A DNA stretch of 64,000 bases, from contig JACKLW010000008.1 of assembly GCA_024235715.1 (NCBI GenBank), positions 124,001 through 188,000 of the forward strand. The letters are read 5' to 3'. The notes beneath the pieces are model-generated. The model was not told the origin of the DNA and ran no database searches. It saw only the letters and a list, made by a program, of their open reading frames with translations. This document shows, in pieces, positions 3,896 to 44,217 of the stretch (within the stretch, counting starts at the first letter, position 1; each line of letters starts with the position of its first letter). Source of the DNA: Accumulibacter sp. GTDB lineage: Bacteria; Pseudomonadota; Gammaproteobacteria; Burkholderiales; Rhodocyclaceae. The position numbers were made by a program, and so were the translations under genes.

Positions 3896-6800
3896 ACCAG
3901 GCACCGCCTGCGGCCGTCGCCAGCACGCTGCCGGCGCCGCTGGATACCTTGCGCTTTCCACTGCACGGCAGCCACCTCATCGAGGCCAGCGCCGGCACCG
4001 GCAAGACGTTCACCATCGCTGCGCTGTACGTTCGCCTGGTGCTCGGGCATGGCGGCGCAGACGCCTACGGACGCGCCCTGACACCGGGCGAGATTCTCGT
4101 CGTCACCTTCACCGATGCGGCGACCCAGGAGTTGCGCGACCGCATTCGCAGCCGTCTGGCGGTGGCGGCGGACGCCTTCCGTGTCGATCCGGGAAGCATC
4201 GGCAGCGCGTCGCCCGGTCAGGATCCCTGGCACGGGCTGCGCGCGGAATACCCGCCCGAGCAGTGGCCAGTCTGCGCCCGCAAGCTGCAACTGGCCGCCG
4301 AAGCGATGGACGAGGCAGCCGTGTCGACCATTCACAGCTGGTGCAACCGCATGCTGCGCGAACATGCCTTCGACAGCGACAGCCTGTTCACCCAGGAACT
4401 GGAGACCGACCAGCGCGAGTTGCTCTCGGAAGTGGTGCGCGACTACTGGCGCAGCTTCATGGTCGCGCTGGACGCCGACGCGGTCGCCGAGGTGCGCCAG
4501 TGGTGGTCCGGCCCGGCAGCGCTTCAAGTCAGTATTGGCGGCCTTCTCGAGCATGCCGGTCTGCTGCCTGCCGCGCTGCGCGCACCGGCAGAAGCGCTGC
4601 GCGAAGCACTCGCCGACAGGCAGCAGCGACTGGCCGAGATCAAGGCGCCCTGGTCGGCGTGGGTCGATGAACTGCAGACCTTGCTCGACACGGCGCGCGA
4701 CAAGAAGCAGTTGAATGGCAGCAAGTTGAAGAAGAACAACTACGACGCCTGGCTGCAGTGCTTGGCACGGTGGCGCGACGACCGCGGGAGCGTGAACCCG
4801 GGCCTCACCGAAGCCGCAACGCGGCGCCTGACGCCAGACGGCATGGCCGAAGCGTGGAATGGCGCCGCCGCCCCGCGACACCCCGCACTCGACGCCATTG
4901 CGGCGCTCGCTGGCCAGCTGGCGGCGCTTCCCGACGCCCGCCAGGAACTGCTGTGTCACGCTGCACGCTGGGTCGCGGCGCGTTTCGCGGCCGAGCAGGC
5001 GCGCTGCGCGCAGATCGGTTTCAATGACCTGCTGACCCGGCTCGACGCCGCTCTGCAGGGCGCCAACGGCGGCCGGCTGGCCGACATCATCCGGCGCCAG
5101 TTCCCTGCCGCCCTGATCGACGAATTCCAGGACACCGACCCGGTGCAGTACCGTATCTTCGATGCCGTCTATCGCGTCGCGGAGAATGCTCCGGATACCG
5201 CGCTGATCCTGATCGGCGACCCCAAGCAGGCGATCTACGCCTTTCGCGGTGCCGACATCCACACCTATCTGGCTGCCAGACGCGCCTGTGGCGGGCGGCT
5301 GCATACGCTGCGGACGAACTTTCGCTCGACCGCCGCCATGGTGGCGGCGACCAATCACTGCTTTGCCGTCGCCGAAGCGCGCACGAACGGCGAGGGGGCT
5401 TTTCTCTTCCGCAGCGACACCGACAACCCGGTGCCCTTCGTCGCCGTTGCCGCCGCGGGGCGACAGGACGAGTTGCAGGCAGCAGGCCGGCGCCTGCCGG
5501 CACTCACCGCCTGGTGGCTGCCGGCGGGCGCCGACGGCAAGTCCCTGAGCAGGGACGCGTACTTCGAGCAGATGGCTGCCGCCTGTGCCAGTGAGATGGT
5601 GCGCCTGCTCAATCTCGGCCAGGCCGGCCAGGCCGGCTTCGCGGGCAGGACGGGGTCGCAACCGCTGCGGCCCGCGGACATGGCGGTGCTGGTCAACAAC
5701 CGCAGGGAGGCCGATGCCATCCGCGGCGCCCTGGCGCAACGCGGCGTGCGCAGCGTCTATCTGTCGGACAAGGACTCCGTCTTCGAGAGCGCCGAGGCAG
5801 TCGAGTTGCAGCACTGGCTCGCCGCCTGTGCCGAACCCGACGACGCGCGCCTGCTGCGCGCCGCACTGGCCACTGCCACCCTGGATCTGAGCTGGCGGGA
5901 ACTCGATGGCCTGAACCATGACGAGCTCGCCTGGGAGGCGCGCGTCCTGCAGTTTCGTGCCTACCGTGACTGCTGGCGTCGCCAGGGCGTGCTGCCCATG
6001 CTGCGCCGGCTGCTCAATGATTTCGAGCTTCCGGCGCGGCTGCTCGGCCAGGGCAGGGCGCTCGAAGAACGCAAGGGGGCTGCGCGCAGCGGCGAACGTA
6101 TCCTGACCAATGTCCTGCATCTCTCCGAACTGCTGCAGCAGGCGAGCACGCTGCTCGACGGCGAGCACGCGCTGATCCGCTACCTGGCCGAACAGCAGCA
6201 GGATGCCGCGAGCAATGGCCGGGACGCACGCCAGCTGCGCCTGGAGAGCGACGCCGACCTGGTGCAGGTGGTCACCGTGCACAAGTCGAAAGGGCTGGAG
6301 TATCCGCTGGTCTTCCTGCCGTTTGCCTGCAACTTCCGACCGAGCAAGGGCAGCGATCTGCCGCTGAAATGGCACGACGAACAGGGTGCGCTGCAGCTCT
6401 CGCTCGCCGCAGACCCCGCCATCCTCGAGCGGGCGGATGGCGAGCGCCTCGGCGAAGACCTGCGCAAGCTCTACGTCGCCCTGACGCGCGCGCGCTATGC
6501 GACCTGGGTGGGGTGCGCGCCGCTCAAGGATCTGGAACGTAGCGCCTTCGCCTACCTGCTTGGCGGTGGGCGGGCGATCGAAGCCACCGCCCTGGCAGCG
6601 GTGCTGGACGCCTGGCGCGATGGCTGTCCGGACGTGCTCGTCGCGCCGGCGCCGGCGCCCGCTGGCGAGCGCTTCGAGGCGCGCGCGCCGAGCATTGCTG
6701 CCGGCGTGGCAAGAACATCGCAGCGCGTCGTCCGCGAGCATTGGTGGATTGCCAGCTATTCGGCCTTGCAGACCGATGCGGCGGGTGTTGGCGTAGCGGC

Positions 6801-35724: not shown

Positions 35725-38717
35725 ATGCCGGTCAGCTTTCTGTCCAACGAACAGCGCGAGAACTATGGTCACTATACAGGGGCGCCGTCACCCCACGACC
35801 TCGCCCGCTACTTCCACCTCGACGATGCCGACCACGCGCTGATCGCTCAGAAGCGCGGCAAGCACAACCGGCTCGGTTTCGCCGTGCAGCTCGGCACGGT
35901 GCGTTATCTCGGCACGTTCCTTGAAGACCCTCTGGCTGTGCCGGTGCCGGTGCTGTAGTCGCTGGCCAGGCAATTGCGCATCGAGGTGGGCAGCCGTGTG
36001 TTGGCCTACCGTGCGGGCGAGCAGCGTTGGCTGCATAGGACGGAAATCCGCCGCTCCTATGGCTATGTCGAGATCACCGAGCGCCAGGTCGGCTTTCGCC
36101 TGACCCGCTGGCTATACGCGCTGTGCTGGACCGGCACCGATCGCCCAAGTGTCCTGTTCGAGCGAGCCGTCACCTGGATGGTGACGCACAAGGTGCTGCT
36201 GCCCGGCTGCAGCACCCTCGAACGCTATATCGCCCGCCTGCGCAGTCGGGTCGAGGAGCGGCTGTGGCGTTCTCTCAGCCGCGGTATCAGCGGCGAACAG
36301 CAGGAAAAGCTGGAAAACCTGCTGGTCGTCCCAGCCGGCAGCCGAACTTCGCCACTGGATCGCGTGCGCACCGGACCGGTGATGGTCAACAGCCGATCAC
36401 TGGTCTTGGCCCTGGTGCGGCTGAGCTCGGTGCGCGAACTGGGCATCAGGCTGCCAGCCGCGGCCCGCATCCCGGCCACCCGTGTGGCGGCCTTGGCGCG
36501 GTATGCGGGCACTGCCAAGGTCGGTGCCATCCTGCGCTTGCCGCATCCGCGCCGCTTGGCGACGCTGGTCGCCTTCGCGCATTGCCTGGAAGCTAGCGCG
36601 CAGGACGACGTACTGGAAGTGCTGGAGACGATCCTGCGCGAATTGTTCGGCGACGCCATCAAGGCCGACAGGAAAGCGCGCCTGCGCTCGCTGAGGGATC
36701 TGGATCAAGCGGCCGCGACCCTGGCCGGCGCCTGCCAGATGCTGCTGGATACCGGTTTGCCCGATGGCGAGCTGCGCACCAGATTGTTCGAGAAGATTCC
36801 ACGTACCACGCTCACGCAGGCGCTGGAAGGCGTCCAATCCCTGATCCGACCCGCCGACAACGTGTACTACCGGGAGTTGGATGCCAAGTATCGAACGGTG
36901 CGTTGCTTTCTGCCGGCTCTGGTCGAGAACATTCGCTTCGGCGCGAACGCCGCCGGCGAGCCGGTCGTCGCTGCCTTCGATTGGTTGCGGGTCCACATGG
37001 GGCGGAAGAAGCCAGGCAACGATGCACCGCGCGAAGTAGTCGGCAACTCCTGGCGGCGGCATGTTCTGCGAGACGATGACACCGTCCATTTCCACGCCTA
37101 CATCTTTTGCGTGCTGGATGAATTGCACACGGCCCTGCGCCGACGTGACGTGTTTGGGCGCCAAGCTGGCGTTATGCCGATCCGCGCACCGGCCTACTCG
37201 ATGGCGCCGAGTGGGAAGCCACCCGGCCGATCATCTGCCGGACCTTGGGACTATCGGCCGATCCCGAGCCGACGCTGACCGCCTTGGCTACCGAGCTGGA
37301 TCGCACCTATCGTGCTGTGGTCGACCGGTTGCCCGACAACCCGGCGGTGCGATTCGAAACGACTGGCGACAAACACGACCTGGTGCTCAGTCCCTTCGAC
37401 AAGCTGGATGAGCCAGCCTCGTTGGTCGCGTTACGCGAGAAGGTCGCCGGGTTGCTGCCGCGCGTCGACCTGCCCGAACTGATTCTGGAAATTGCCGCAC
37501 GGACAGGATTCACCGATGCTTTCACCCACATCTCGGAGCGTACGGCCCGCGCCGCCGATCTCCCCATCAGCCTGTGCGCGGTACTGATGGCCGAAGCCTG
37601 CAATACCGGACCGGAGCCGTTGATTCGCGGCGACGTCGCGGCACTCAAGCGCGAGCGCTTATCCTGGGTAGACCAGAATTATGTCCGCGACGACACGCTG
37701 ACAGCGGCCAACGCGATGCTGGTCAATGCGCAATCGCGTCTGGTTCTGGCAACCCTTTGGGGTGGCGGCGAGGTCGCATCGGCCGACGGCATCCGTTTCG
37801 TGGTGCCGGTGCGCACGGTGCATGCCGGCCCCAATCCCAAATATTTCGGGGTCGGTCGCGGCGTCACCTGGTACAACCTGATCTCCGACCAGTTCTCTGG
37901 CTTGAACGACATCACCGTGCCAGGCACCTTGCGCGACAGCCTGATCCTCCTGGCCGTGGTGCTCGAACAACAGACCGACCTTCAGCCGACGCAGATCATG
38001 GCCGACACCGGCGCTTACAGCGACGTGGTGTTCGGTCTTTTCCGGCTGCTCGGCTATCGCTTCAGCCCGCGATTGGCGGATGTCGGCGGCACACGCTTCT
38101 GGCGAATCGACCCACAGGCTGACTACGGCCTGCTCAACACCGTTTCGGCCCACCATCTTAGCTTGCAGAAGATCGTACCGTATTGGGACGACATGTTGCG
38201 CCTGGCCGGTTCGCTCAAACTCGGTCGCGTGCCGGCCGCCGGAATCATGCGCACACTCCAGGTTGGCGACCGGCCAACGCGGCTGGCGTTGGCTATCGCT
38301 GAATTCGGCCGGATCGACAAGACCATCCACACGCTGACCTACATCGATGACGAAGCCAAGCGGCGCGCTACGTTGACGCAGCTCAACCGAGGAGAGGGCC
38401 GACACAGCGTTGCTCGAGCCGTGTTCCATGGCAAGCGCGGCGAGCTGCGCCAACGTTACCGCGCAGGACAGGAAGACCAGTTGGGCGCGCTCGGCCTGGT
38501 GCTGAACATGATCGTGTTGTGGAACACCATCTACATCGCGGCAGCCTTGAAGCAACTGCGCTCGGAGGGCTACCCGGTGAATGATGAAGACGTGGTGCGC
38601 CTGTCTCCGCTGCTGTACGAACACATCAACATGCTGGGGCGCTATTCGTTCTCGGTTCCGGAAGCTGTGACCAAAGGCGAATTGCGACCCTTGCGCAATC
38701 CCGCAGACGACGAATAG
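35725..38717 (+). pseudogene. Tn3-family transposase, broken by a stop codon and a frameshift (lineage 2)
   Basis: The DUF4158 N-terminus ([20 protein letters not shown]) is followed by an in-frame TAG at 35956-35958. The frame then reopens (SLARQLRIEVGSRVL) and runs to about 37156, where one extra G in TTTGGGCG shifts the frame. The sequence resumes as APSWRYADPRTGLLDGAEWE in the next frame. The remaining part has the C-terminal DDE domain (VGRGVTWYNLISDQ, MADTGAYSDVVFGLFRLLGY, FHGKRGELRQRYRAGQEDQL). Apart from these two lesions the gene seems full length, about 990 codons, so inactivation looks recent. Confidence 0.85.
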
Positions 38718-39195: not shown

Positions 39196-39672
39196 TCAGT
39201 CATCCGTTCTCAGGTAATGGTAGATGGTTTCGCGGCTGATGCCGAACTCGCGGGCGAGCTTGGCTTTCTGCTCACCGGCGGCGGCCCGCCGGCGCAGCTC
39301 GGCCATCCGCTTCGGCGATAGCGCCTTCTTGCGGCCCCGGTAGGCCCCGCGCTGCTTGGCGAGCGAGATACCCTCGCGCTGCCGCTCGCGGATCAGGGCG
39401 CGCTCGAACTCGGCGAACGCGCCCATCACCGACAGCATCAGGTTCGCCATCGGCGAGTCCTCGCCGGTGAAGGTAAGGCTTTCCTTGACGAATTCGATGC
39501 GCACGCCACGCTGGGTGAGGCCCTGCACCAAGCGGCGCAGGTCGTCGAGGTTGCGCGCCAGGCGGTCCATGCTGTGCACCACCACCGTGTCGCCCTCGCG
39601 CCGGGTGCTCTGACGCCAGGTTAGCGTATAGCTCAAGATGACACCTTGCTTGAATGACTCACTGTAAATCAC
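39196..39672 (-). pseudogene. Resolvase fragment lacking its catalytic N-terminus (lineage 3)
   Basis: From about 39600 leftward the frame encodes a serine recombinase (GDTVVVHSMDRLARNLDDLR, VMGAFAEFERALIRERQREG, and a C-terminal helix-turn-helix AKLAREFGISRETIYHYLRT). The first 60 residues, including the nucleophilic Ser region, are replaced by unrelated sequence (MIYSESFKQGV...). The stop is 3 bases before the Tn21-type TnpA start, so this was the tnpR-tnpA pair of one transposon. Confidence 0.75.
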
Positions 39673-40340: not shown

Positions 40341-41519
40341 TAGTGTCTCTCTAATGCCTTTACATAAGCATCGTTTAATCTATACTTCAGGCAATCACTG
40401 CTTGGAGGACGAAGCGATGCCGAAAACACCGATTGTGCTTGACGCGGAGGAGGCCCGGGAACTGAGAAGGCGGACGCGAGCCAGTACAGTGGCGGTTCGA
40501 GACCGGTTGCGCGCGCAGATCATCCTACTGGCCGCCGAAGGCCAGAAACAGGAAGCCATCGGCGCTGCGGTGGGGGTAACGCGTGTGACCGTGAATCACT
40601 GGTGCCGGCGTTTTGCGCAACAAGGTTTTGCTGGCTTGAGGGATGCACCTGGTCGGGGGCGGAAGCCGAGCGTCCCCACGGCGGCAGTCCGTAAAGTGTT
40701 GGAGACGGTTGCTCGCCCGCCGGAAACGGTGGGGCGCTGGAGTTGCCGCAGCATGGCGAAGGCGGCCGGCATCTCGCCGGCGAGCGTGCAGCGCCTCTGG
40801 GCAGCGAATGATATCAAGCCGCACCTGACGCGCACCTTCAAGCTGTCGAACGACCCACATTTCGAGGAGAAATTCTGGGACGTCATCGGTTTGTATCTCG
40901 ATCCACCGGAGAAGGCCTTGGTTCTGTGCTGTGATGAGAAGTCGCAATGTCAGGCGCTGGAGCGCACCCAACCGGGGCTGCCCTTGGGCATTGGCCACAT
41001 CAAGACCGAAACCCATGACGACATCCGTAGCGGCACCCTCACGCTGTTTGCAGCACTGAACTATCTGGAAGGCAAACTGATCACGACCATTGCTGAGCAG
41101 CACCGGCATCAGGAATGGCTGGCCTTCCTCAAGAAGATCGACCGCGAAACCTCCAAGGATCTGGCCATTCATTTGATTGTCGACAACTATGCGACCCATA
41201 AGCATGCTGAGGTAAAGGCCTGGTTGCAGGCGCATCCGCGCTTTCACATGCACTTCACACCGACTTCTTCGTCCTGGCTCAATCTGGTGGAACGTTTCTT
41301 CCGTGACGTTTCCGACCGCATCGCCGCGGGTAGCTTTGCGTCCGTCAAGGAGTTGGCGAACACCATCATCACCTTCTTGGCTGAGCGCAACGACAATCCA
41401 AAGCGATACGTCTGGCGTGCCAAGGGCGAGGAAATCCTGCGCAAGATCCAGCGCGCTCGCGACGTGATGAGTGCGCCGGAAACGTCCGAATCAGGTGCGT
41501 AGCTATTTTTGTGACACTA
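40341..41519 (+). mobile_element. IS630-family insertion sequence flanked by TA
   Basis: TA dinucleotides (40341-40342 and 41518-41519) bracket ends sharing the inverted GTGTC motif (GTGTCTC left; GTGTCAC on the other strand at the right), as expected for IS630/mariner-type insertion at TA. The single transposase frame is intact. The right end is one base from the inner edge of a Tn21-type 38-bp repeat. Confidence 0.75.
40417..41502 (+). CDS. tnpA: IS630-family transposase
   Basis: The 361-residue protein has an N-terminal helix-turn-helix (QKQEAIGAAVGVTRVTVNHW) and the DDE domain: VLCCDEKSQCQALERTQ (first Asp), LIVDNYATHKH (second Asp) and SWLNLVERFFRDVSDR (Glu). GGAGG lies upstream of ATG 40417, and the in-frame extension upstream overlaps the toxin gene, so the ATG is preferred. 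It looks functional. Confidence 0.92.
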   Translation: MPKTPIVLDAEEARELRRRTRASTVAVRDRLRAQIILLAAEGQKQEAIGAAVGVTRVTVNHWCRRFAQQGFAGLRDAPGRGRKPSVPTAAVRKVLETVARPPETVGRWSCRSMAKAAGISPASVQRLWAANDIKPHLTRTFKLSNDPHFEEKFWDVIGLYLDPPEKALVLCCDEKSQCQALERTQPGLPLGIGHIKTETHDDIRSGTLTLFAALNYLEGKLITTIAEQHRHQEWLAFLKKIDRETSKDLAIHLIVDNYATHKHAEVKAWLQAHPRFHMHFTPTSSSWLNLVERFFRDVSDRIAAGSFASVKELANTIITFLAERNDNPKRYVWRAKGEEILRKIQRARDVMSAPETSESGA

Positions 41520-41520
41520 C

Positions 41521-41558
41521 ATTAGCGTACGATTTCTTCCGTTTCGTGAGCTGACCCC
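41521..41558 (-). repeat. 38-bp terminal inverted repeat of a Tn21-subgroup transposon
   Basis: On the minus strand the sequence starts GGGGTCAGCTCACGAAACGG and ends CGTACGCTAAT. It has the GGGGTC...CTCA...AAACGGAA...CGCTAA layout of the Tn21 terminal repeat. It faces the tnpR/tnpA fragments at 38856-39672 and so marks their transposon's outer boundary. The matching opposite end was not found. Confidence 0.75.
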
Positions 41559-41597
41559 CTTTACAACCAAGCGGCAACCTGAACCGGAGCAACTTGC

Positions 41598-43250
41598 ATG
41601 GTGAGAAAGCGAGACGACGAATGGACCAACGTGGAGTCCCTGATCGCGCTGCTGTCCCATGGCTATACGGACGAGGTAAGAGCCTTCACCAAGGGCATCC
41701 AGGCGAATCCCTCGGCCGTTACCGGCTTCGAGCGGCTGTTCAAATTATTGAACGCCGAAGGAAAGATCGACTGGGCGGGCACCGAATCTCAGCAAGCGGC
41801 GATGGCCAGAGCCGAGGAGAGCGCCCAGGAACTGGACGATTTCCTCGAAGGCATGACCCATCCGTTCGAAACCTATGTCCTGGTACTCAATCACGGCCAC
41901 GAGATCATCGTCGAGACCGGCTGGCATGACGACGTCGCCGGTCCGGTCGTGTGGGATCGCTGGGCGAGCGACGTAGACGATCCCGTCATGGCATACGCCG
42001 ACATCGGCTTTCTGTTCGACAACCCGGACTACCGCTGCGAACCGAAGACTGCCGAAAAGCCAGCACCGCCGCTGTATCGCTATCACCCGGAACGCTTCAA
42101 GGCATACCGTGACTATGCCGAGCCGGTCGGCAAGCTTTACCGGCAGCGGGTCGATCCGGCAACGGGCATGTTGACCATCGACCAGCTCAACGCAATTGCT
42201 CGTCATATGAGCACGGCATTGAACCAGCGCTCACTCCGGTTTCCTCGCAAGCGCAAGGAATCCCATCCGCAACCATCACTTGTCATTGAGGCCGAGCAAA
42301 CGCTTGCTACTGCCTACGGGCGCTTCATCCAAGCCGGCCGACAGATCATCGACTTCCCGCCGGCGTTGACCGAAATGCTGGCCGAGACGGACATCGACGA
42401 CATTCCGATGAACAGCATCAATCTGCCCTACGCGTCGCAATACCTGTACTTCGGCCCGCAGCCCAGCCTGGAGATCGAGCCGGACTGGCTGGTCGACGGC
42501 GCCTATGTCGAGCAGCGCGGCGCAAGCGGCGACGTGCGCTTCACGGTCACCGCCGTCCCGCACGAGCAAGCCTTGTCGGCGCAGTGGTATCTGTTTCCGG
42601 AGGTTGAGTACACCCAGGACTTCGTCGGCGAGTTTCGCTCAATGGATTTGGCCACCGCCATCGACACTGTGCTGTCGAGCAGGCTCGCCGAGCTGATGAA
42701 ACGGCGCGCGGGCACCGGTGGCGACATCACGGCGACGTTGGAGGAGGCGGCCACCGAGAGCGGCATGGCACTGCCCGCGGGCGTCAGTGTCGTCGACGTC
42801 AGCCCGACGCTGGCGGCCGTGCGCGACAACATCACCCGCCGCCGGCACCCCGTCTACAAAGCGGCCCTGCAATTGGTGGTCAATGCGCTGTGCTACGTCG
42901 CGGCCTATCCCGAAGACATTGATACGGTCTGGCCGGAAGGAACACCCGACTCGCTCAAACAGAAGGCGCTGCACGGCAAGGGCAAGGAGCAGATGCGGGC
43001 AAGGTCGAAGCTGACCGCGCTTGGCTATGTACCGGTGCATATTTGCGGCAAGCGCGTCGCCGAACAGCGTACGCACCGGGGCATCCCAGCGCATGGTCAC
43101 GTCGCTACGCACTGGCGGCGTGGTCACTGGCGCAACCAGGTGCACGGCCCGGCGCGCTCGCTGCGCAAGCTGATCTGGGTCATGCCGGTCGTCGTCGGGT
43201 CCAAGCACGCCGACGAACCTGAGGCCGGGCATGTCTACTTGGTGTCGTGA
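41598..43250 (+). CDS. Hypothetical protein (550 aa) with AcrVA2-like C-terminal layout
   Basis: I cannot assign a function with certainty. Soluble, no signal peptide. The C-terminal half has a series of elements recalling the AcrVA2 anti-CRISPR family: INLPYASQYLYFGPQPSLEI, then ALQLVVNALCYVAAYPEDI, a lysine/arginine-rich linker, and HWRRGHWRNQVHGPARSLRK followed by LIWVMPVVVG. AcrVA2 and its many homologues on mobile DNA end in a similar H.RR.HW...G...RW..P..V block. The N-terminal 250 residues are longer than in AcrVA2 and unrecognised. It starts 39 bases outside the Tn21-type repeat and precedes another orphan gene. Confidence 0.55.
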   Translation: MVRKRDDEWTNVESLIALLSHGYTDEVRAFTKGIQANPSAVTGFERLFKLLNAEGKIDWAGTESQQAAMARAEESAQELDDFLEGMTHPFETYVLVLNHGHEIIVETGWHDDVAGPVVWDRWASDVDDPVMAYADIGFLFDNPDYRCEPKTAEKPAPPLYRYHPERFKAYRDYAEPVGKLYRQRVDPATGMLTIDQLNAIARHMSTALNQRSLRFPRKRKESHPQPSLVIEAEQTLATAYGRFIQAGRQIIDFPPALTEMLAETDIDDIPMNSINLPYASQYLYFGPQPSLEIEPDWLVDGAYVEQRGASGDVRFTVTAVPHEQALSAQWYLFPEVEYTQDFVGEFRSMDLATAIDTVLSSRLAELMKRRAGTGGDITATLEEAATESGMALPAGVSVVDVSPTLAAVRDNITRRRHPVYKAALQLVVNALCYVAAYPEDIDTVWPEGTPDSLKQKALHGKGKEQMRARSKLTALGYVPVHICGKRVAEQRTHRGIPAHGHVATHWRRGHWRNQVHGPARSLRKLIWVMPVVVGSKHADEPEAGHVYLVS

Positions 43251-43355
43251 GGACGCCTGTCGTGACTTTGCAAAAACGCGGGTTTGCCAACCACGCTCTC
43301 TTCCCAAGATCGACCATCTGACAACTACCGCGAGACGCTTGATGGGGTTCCTCGC

Positions 43356-43982
43356 ATGAGCAACGTCTACCGTCTACTCACCAAGCTGACGCTCAACCGC
43401 TGGTTCGCGCAGGACTTCCTCGACGCCCCTGAGCCGTGCTGCGCGCTCAGCGTTATCGAGGAGCGCAAACAGGTGTTGCCGCTTGTGGCCTTTCGTCCCG
43501 GCGTCGTGCTTCCTTATGGCGTCACCGAACAGGGTTTCGATTTCGGCCATTCGGTGCTGGGCGGCGATAGCTACGAAATCGTGCACTTCGCGTTCAAGTT
43601 CCGCGGTTTCTGCACCTACAACGTGCTGGTCAACCCGAGCGATCCGGTGGTGCGGGAGGTGATTCGGCACCTGGTCGAGCATCGCTGCTATGTCGTGCTT
43701 GCCGTCGATCCTGACCAGCACGTCGCCGCGTTCAAGGCCGGAGTCGGCGAGGTGACGCTGTCCGGCCTTATCGATCACTACCCGCGTATCGCACGCTCAA
43801 TCACCAGCAGGGCGACATACGGCCGGGTGCTCGCGCAATTTCGCCGGCGGACGCCGCCGTCCGGACAGATGCTCAATTGGGCCTGCCGCAGCGCGCTGTC
43901 TTACCTTGACCTGACGACGGACCGGATGGAATTGTCCTCAGCGCCGATGCCCGAATCAAGCGACGGCCTGTCCGTGCAGTAG
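43356..43982 (+). CDS. Hypothetical protein (208 aa), partner of the AcrVA2-like gene
   Basis: The family is not recognised. ATG 43356 (MSNVYRLLTKLTLNRWFAQD) follows a GGGG sequence, 105 bases after the upstream stop on the same strand. The protein is cytoplasmic with a mixed alpha/beta pattern (EEVRHLVEHRCYVVLAVDPD is typical of its style around residue 115-135; the actual text there is REVIRHLVEHRCYVVLAVDP). GC and codon use match the upstream gene, suggesting they travelled together. Confidence 0.55.
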   Translation: MSNVYRLLTKLTLNRWFAQDFLDAPEPCCALSVIEERKQVLPLVAFRPGVVLPYGVTEQGFDFGHSVLGGDSYEIVHFAFKFRGFCTYNVLVNPSDPVVREVIRHLVEHRCYVVLAVDPDQHVAAFKAGVGEVTLSGLIDHYPRIARSITSRATYGRVLAQFRRRTPPSGQMLNWACRSALSYLDLTTDRMELSSAPMPESSDGLSVQ

Positions 43983-43989
43983 TAAATTC

Positions 43990-44217
43990 TTATGTGTCTT
44001 CAAATCGCAGATTCGCTCCCACTGAGCCAAATTCGGCAAGCCTTATCAGCTCTTTGGTTGCAGTATCCCCGCTTATATGAAACTCATCCACCGGCTGCAG
44101 ATCATCCAATGTGACTTTTGACAGGTCCTTGCCCAAATTATTGAGCCCGTCAATTATCTTGGAATATAAATTGGTCGGAGAGTAATAGATGTGGATGTGC
44201 TTGACATCTTTGGTCAT
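43990..44217 (-). pseudogene. N-terminal remnant of a SAM-dependent methyltransferase
   Basis: The 75-residue frame (MTKDVKHIHIYYSPTNLYSK...) contains LQPVDEFHISGDTATKELIR, the segment that in UbiE/sarcosine-type methyltransferases lies just before the SAM-binding motif 'VLDVGCGxGG'. That motif and the rest are missing, and the frame runs out within 10 residues in unrelated sequence. It is AT-rich compared with its left-hand neighbours, so the junction near 44020 marks a change of origin. Confidence 0.5.

Follow-up and report, generated by a model that had tools for sequence, protein, structure and literature searches.

A putative sister group of the anti-CRISPR protein AcrVA2 with a rare N-terminal extension, represented beside the end of a Tn3-family transposon relic in Accumulibacter

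Does a 550-residue protein encoded at the edge of a transposon relic in the genome of an Accumulibacter, a wastewater bacterium, belong with the anti-CRISPR protein AcrVA2, and what might it do there, alone or together with the gene beside it? The window (the whole stretch of 64,000 nucleotides analysed, positions 124001-188000 of contig C8 in a genome of 4.14 Mb and 25 contigs) carries both genes on the + strand, exactly where an initial annotation had drawn them: gene A (41598..43250, ATG start, 550 residues) and gene B (43356..43982, 208 residues from the ATG at 43356), separated by 105 bases. That annotation described them as an AcrVA2-like two-gene unit bordering a Tn21-type relic. Profile comparisons and predicted structures indicate that the C-terminal ~300-350 residues of A are homologous to AcrVA2 and share its predicted fold, and the sequence tree places A in a sister group outside the AcrVA2 family sensu stricto.

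The C-terminal part of A aligns with AcrVA2

Alignment, profile and predicted models divide A (41598..43250, + strand) into a putative N-terminal extension (about residues 1-180) and a core with the predicted AcrVA2 fold (about residues 190-540). The sequence elements singled out by the initial annotation are all present: INLP from residue 274, LCYVAAYPEDI, a basic linker, the C-terminal signature HWRRGHWRNQ (residues 505-514; 43110..43139, + strand) and WVMPVVVG. They exceed chance, as seen in the alignment of A with 16 plasmid relatives (A1, 17 rows): H505, R507, R508 and H510 are retained in 14 of the 16, the exceptions being L010, which lacks the C-terminal end, and L028, with M in place of H505. 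The same H-x-R-R-[GA]-H block (A 505-510) occurs in 6/6 AcrVA2-family rows. A and the AcrVA2 of Moraxella (7CI1, 7CI2) have their parts in the same order (an 'IFDF'-like element, 'PY..Y..F', a hydrophobic helix, a basic linker, H-x-R-R-G-H and a W..P..V end), with H-W-R-R-G-H-W-R-N-Q in A where AcrVA2 has H-I-R-R-G-H-W-H-G. Unlike AcrVA2, A has about 170-180 additional N-terminal residues, and this longer part, already remarked in the initial annotation, has no counterpart in the alignment of the two.

The profile comparison was made between A1 and a second alignment (A2), composed of the AcrVA2-like protein of a Shewanella phage and five other phage relatives. The Shewanella protein matches solved AcrVA2 (7CI1) at 1.5e-72 and PHROG 6160 at 1e-58, and the A2 profile found a single sequence in the PDB at E 10 or better, AcrVA2. 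Aligned with hhalign, A1 and A2 gave a probability of 97 and an E value of 1e-10 over A 246-538 (42333..43211, + strand), paired with AcrVA2-family residues 87-324; the controls gave E values of 0.14-0.99 (20 column-shuffled versions), 0.62 (reversed alignment) and 0.19 (B alignment). Of the 17 rows of A1, 14 matched PHROG 6160 and 14 matched PHROG 15934, two phage families of unknown function (E 0.01 or better for each). The N-terminus of A is longer than in these families, and its own matches to them are limited to the C-terminal block (35 and 41 residues). Structural alignment of the models matched the predicted fold of the A core to AcrVA2 (PDB 7CI1, 7CI2) at 10-15% identity. The C-terminal 300 residues of A, for which the initial annotation had proposed such kinship, align with AcrVA2 both by profile and by predicted fold.

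Several results weigh against this reading: a PDB sequence search with A or with A1 returned nothing at E 10; hhalign gave a probability of only 28 (E 6.3e-4) without the motif region and of 38 (E 3.3e-4) for A 235-500 alone; the models of A are of low to moderate confidence (mean predicted local distance difference test scores of 45.5 and 56.3); and the Foldseek template modelling scores are low (0.24-0.41). The motif-free E values lie below those of all the controls, and therefore the likeness between A and AcrVA2 is more than the motif, though it is modest without it.

Some viral proteins from motif scans lie between the two profiles. With the A profile, L171 and L173 gave E values of 2e-29 and 3.5e-30, and with the AcrVA2 profile 5e-10 and 4e-10; L179 and L184 gave 1e-48 and 6e-48 with the AcrVA2 profile and about 3e-10 with that of A. 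Among 120 viral loci, 112 of the 115 open reading frames of at least 60 residues match the A profile at 0.01; these loci were chosen by motif scans, so that their motif columns match by construction. The comparison therefore relies on A1 and A2 (both chosen without the motif), on the motif-free comparison and on the second model of A. Left out of the alignment used for this model (A6) are L179, a row of the AcrVA2 branch, and L171, L173 and L136; its viral rows were motif-chosen and 11/12 still weakly match the AcrVA2 profile (E 1e-6 to 4e-3, for the most part in the motif), which makes the second model less circular than the first, yet not free of circularity.

A belongs to a sister group of the AcrVA2 family

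The initial annotation had suggested that A may be a member of the AcrVA2 family. Homology over the C-terminal ~300 residues bears out the kinship, and membership in the strict sense does not hold, since in a tree of 55 core sequences the 13 rows of the AcrVA2 family stand together on one side of a branch with support 100/99. Three of the 17 A1 rows (L010, L011 and L028), which were short or had no motif, were left out of this tree. A joins the copy from a Denitratisoma plasmid (L009, 100/100) and then L012 (99/96); its wider group, of plasmid and viral-contig rows, is loosely supported, and the tree is weak at its deeper forks and has many long end branches. Because the AcrVA2 rows branch separately, we file A in a sister group, found on plasmids, viral contigs and genome contigs, of a wider putative AcrVA2 superfamily.

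The Shewanella phage protein used above, ORF43 of vB_SbaS_Y11, reported as AcrVA2-like (PMC10846135), falls in the same superfamily (hhalign of this one protein against the A family: probability 80, E 1.4e-5, A 415-536); ORF43 is a close relative of AcrVA2 (1.5e-72 to 7CI1) and A is not. Proteins of huge phages that cluster with AcrVA2 have also been reported (PMC7162821). Among the papers listed by searches on AcrVA2 and on anti-CRISPRs in Accumulibacter, none describes the sister group in its title or the opening of its abstract, though other papers may mention it.

The N-terminal extension is rare and the core is kept

The search for relatives of A covered collections of plasmids and phages as well as genomes related to that of the window. 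A-like proteins were found by tblastn in 37 of 72,556 plasmid records, three of them covering at least 80% of A, and in none of 50,697 phage records. Matches to A occur in 5/300 genomes of the order, the window's own included, and in 8/28 genomes of the genus, partly as fragments only; one of the four other matches in the order (L007) was judged to be due to chance. In L008, a relative of A from a genome of the same order, the C-terminal block is worn, which suggests that the gene is decaying or has taken on a different role. Given the collections searched, the description 'on plasmids' partly reflects the choice of search; copies of A also occur in genome contigs and viral contigs.

Residues 1-168 (41598..42101, + strand) have no family match in library searches and are predicted, at low confidence, to be helical. 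Alone, they were found in three of the 72,556 plasmid records and in one of 369 genomes of the class, which is the window's own. Other long relatives, L012 and L013 (576 residues each), carry N-terminal parts different from that of A, so the N-terminal part varies and the core is kept. A had no usable match in Pfam, PADLOC or NCBIfam (the sole NCBIfam row, at E 0.16, fell far under its cut-off), and alignments A1 and A5 matched no Pfam family.

Peptide-pattern scans of viral contigs yielded no confirmed match for A, for B (singly or as an alignment), for the AcrVA2-like protein of the Shewanella phage or for one plasmid relative. The string HWRRGHWR was found in at least 120 viral stretches by pattern scan of viral contigs; it is a frequent ending of viral-contig proteins (IMG/VR L040-L159), many of them of ~300-480 residues.

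A candidate counter-defence factor of mobile elements

AcrVA2 is reported to recognise the nascent N-terminus of Cas12a, with loss of the Cas12a mRNA through decay machinery that is not known, and a second Cas12a peptide was bound in the crystal (PMC13131331); the same source calls it the first documented prokaryotic case of mRNA loss triggered by nascent-peptide recognition. By analogy, A may be a counter-defence or establishment factor of mobile elements that lowers the expression of a target through peptide recognition, as AcrVA2 does with Cas12a, a proposal to which we give about an even chance. The variable middle and N-terminal parts of A would pick out a peptide in a single target protein, perhaps during its synthesis, and the H-x-R-R-G-H block kept across the superfamily would be the shared working part, in contact with the ribosome, RNA or the decay machinery; the target mRNA or protein would be lost. 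The target of A is probably not Cas12a. Besides the limits of models and profiles given above, two points count against this proposal: fold and mechanism have been linked in a single family, for which the decay machinery is not known (PMC13131331), and partition, replication and toxin-antitoxin genes neighbour A in some plasmids, which fits a housekeeping role equally well.

More tentatively, and with less likelihood than the proposal for A itself, AcrVA2 could be one branch of a large superfamily with which mobile elements shut down the synthesis of chosen host proteins in a peptide-guided manner, the group of A, with its new N-terminal part, being directed at defences or factors other than Cas12a and H-x-R-R-G-H being the common working end. 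If the mechanism is shared, this suggests that the trick of AcrVA2 has targets far removed from Cas12a. The sister group, present on plasmids and in a transposon, combines the predicted fold and the kept block with a rare N-terminus, and would offer a direct route to separate the residues that do the shared work from those that choose the target. AcrVA2 has been discussed as a programmable repressor in conference notes (PMC12908700), and as a parallel to nascent-chain-linked mRNA decay in a tubulin study (PMC10403363).

Alternative explanations

The main rival, prompted by the genes that neighbour A in some records (parAB, repA, toxin-antitoxin), is that A has the same fold and a different job, that of a plasmid housekeeping factor which tunes the expression of the element's own replication, partition or toxin-antitoxin genes and has no anti-defence role. 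The order on the Denitratisoma conjugative plasmid is parA, parB, a trfB-type regulator, A, relB/yafQ and repA; A starts 2 bases past a parE-type toxin gene in Pantoea and Citrobacter plasmids; and 5/16 annotated plasmid loci (L009, L010, L013, L027, L028) have a gene annotated as toxin or toxin-antitoxin no more than about 1 kb from A. However, such genes are common on plasmids and the 5/16 stands without a background rate, the 11 other annotated loci have no toxin-annotated gene within about 1 kb, and AcrVA2, the sole member of known function, acts on a defence protein. We consider this explanation rather unlikely. In the Pantoea (L010, 5445-7533) and Citrobacter (L028, 1665-3399) records, a ribbon-helix-helix/ParE-type pair is followed by the relative of A, suggesting a three-gene operon (the domains were tested in L028).

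Alternatively, A could be a decaying passenger without a present function. The transposon around it is broken in the window, one relative (L004) has an internally deleted A, and L002 and L003, the two close copies, give a ratio of nonsynonymous to synonymous substitution rates (dN/dS) of 0.53 when compared with each other. On the other side, the reading frame is open across 550 codons, and comparison of A with these two close Accumulibacter copies (18 and 26 changed codons) yields dN/dS values of 0.34 and 0.36; the value is 0.33 with L200 and 0.11 with the Denitratisoma plasmid copy, dS being saturated in this last comparison. These ratios are consistent with purifying selection on A that is not strong. 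Mere decay is improbable. The deletion in L004 (5960-6296) removes an internal ~1.3 kb of A, equivalent to 41837-43161 of the window.

The functional link between A and B proposed by the initial annotation was not borne out. An effector/regulator or toxin/antitoxin unit, for example, would agree with two genes on the same strand 105 bases apart, and with their adjacency in three Accumulibacter genomes (the window's own, G000, and, at contig ends, G317 and G321). Against this, 37 plasmid records hold a member of the A family and 37 a member of the B family, and only one record holds both, with the genes 93 kb apart, on which ground B was rejected as the partner of A. Within the genus, A occurs in 8/28 genomes and B or a remnant of it in 5/28, with adjacency in those three only; G310 has a full-length A and no match to B, B is in two frames in G321, and mere remnants of B stand beside the transposon end repeat in G304 and G314. 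A two-gene unit is accordingly very improbable. The profiles of A and B are unrelated (E 0.45). The simplest reading of the adjacency is a shared cargo position, not a shared function, and B would be a co-travelling cargo gene that A does not require.

Least probable of all is that A is a true Cas12a inhibitor working exactly like AcrVA2, for the homology and predicted fold that the two share are set against a position outside the AcrVA2 branch, the 10-15% identity noted above and a host genus of which none of the 28 genomes matched the Cas12a model TIGR04330, a search in which no control genome gave a match either. Cas1 was over the cut-off in 25/28 genomes of the genus. In the window's own genome Cas1 appears as two separate pieces (G000:C15:73379-74087), suggesting a broken gene, and the 19 kb around it contain one pair of 33-base repeats and no clear array.

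A and B as right-end cargo of a Tn3-family transposon relic

A further difference from AcrVA2 is that A lies in a transposon relic. A terminal inverted repeat of Tn3 type (43989..44028, - strand, 40 bases, inward end TAAG), identified by repeat comparison, begins 6 bases past B. It differs at 6/40 positions from a repeat in the Accumulibacter assembly L003 (L003:122-161) that precedes frames carrying PF01526, the Tn3 transposase domain, and PF13700. Repeats of this type (at most 2 mismatches to the pattern) occur at 12 sites in 7/28 genomes of the genus, and the reversed pattern at none in the same 28 genomes. Leftwards of A, the window holds a broken tnpA, with its N-terminal part (35974-37278, PF13700) in a different frame from the Tn3-family transposase DDE domain (37245..38717, + strand, PF01526), and a serine resolvase remnant (39196..39672, - strand, PF00239, PF02796). 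The initial annotation called the relic Tn21-type; the PF01526 domain and the Tn3-type end sustain the Tn3 family, and the Tn21 label is narrower than the evidence.

The closest named relatives (L002, L003 and L004) are Accumulibacter assemblies. A segment with ~98% DNA identity by blastn (41557..43324, + strand) is common to the window, L002 and L003; the match to L002 runs on to 43454, where the L002 contig ends, whereas the match to L003 ends at 43324, short of B, and a transposase gene with an rve domain comes next in L003. L002, L003 and L004 each have a serine resolvase gene that ends just ahead of A (41 bases before it in L003, where the domain was tested). The window DNA left of 41557 differs from these three: in place of the resolvase it has an insertion-sequence transposase found by domain search (40420..41502, + strand, DDE_3, probably IS630-like), just upstream of the shared segment. 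Between transposase and A, L003 carries a second resolvase and two PIN-domain genes. We infer the original order as repeat, transposase, resolvase, PIN genes, resolvase, A, B and repeat. What remains in the window is a relic of this transposon's right end, with B beside the end repeat and A the next gene inward. The window has one repeat of this type and the broken tnpA; both ends and an intact transposase were not found in the same element. A and B lie inside the Tn3-type end repeat, and the same repeat stands beside B or its remnant in G321, G304 and G314, as in G000.

Tn3-family transposons with toxin-antitoxin passengers (PMC7157771) likewise combine transposase, resolvases, terminal repeats and cargo, and L003 also carries the two PIN-domain genes; the window differs from them in that its cargo beside the end repeat is A and B, which are not among the cargo in the available part of that source.

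Gene B (43356..43982, + strand), the right-end cargo of the transposon, has no match in Pfam, PADLOC or NCBIfam, and its search against solved structures by PDB sequence gave only insignificant rows (E 1.7 and 0.089). Relatives of B occur on pJP4, near a Tn3-family transposase, and on a Serratia plasmid, beside vapBC. The copy of B in L206 is broken, and its 3 synonymous and 8 nonsynonymous codons over 88 are too few to judge selection. In Methylomonas (L015, 5001-6377) the frame of the B relative is ~250 residues longer, 458 residues in all. In L205 (G314:C118), two facing copies of the end repeat (5492-5531 and 5857-5896, with 6 and 11/40 mismatches) span 405 bases with only a B remnant between them, an arrangement that resembles a miniature derivative of the transposon. 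In the IncC plasmid of Citrobacter (L028, 2212 onward), the relative of A lies beside an integrase and a Tn3-family transposase.
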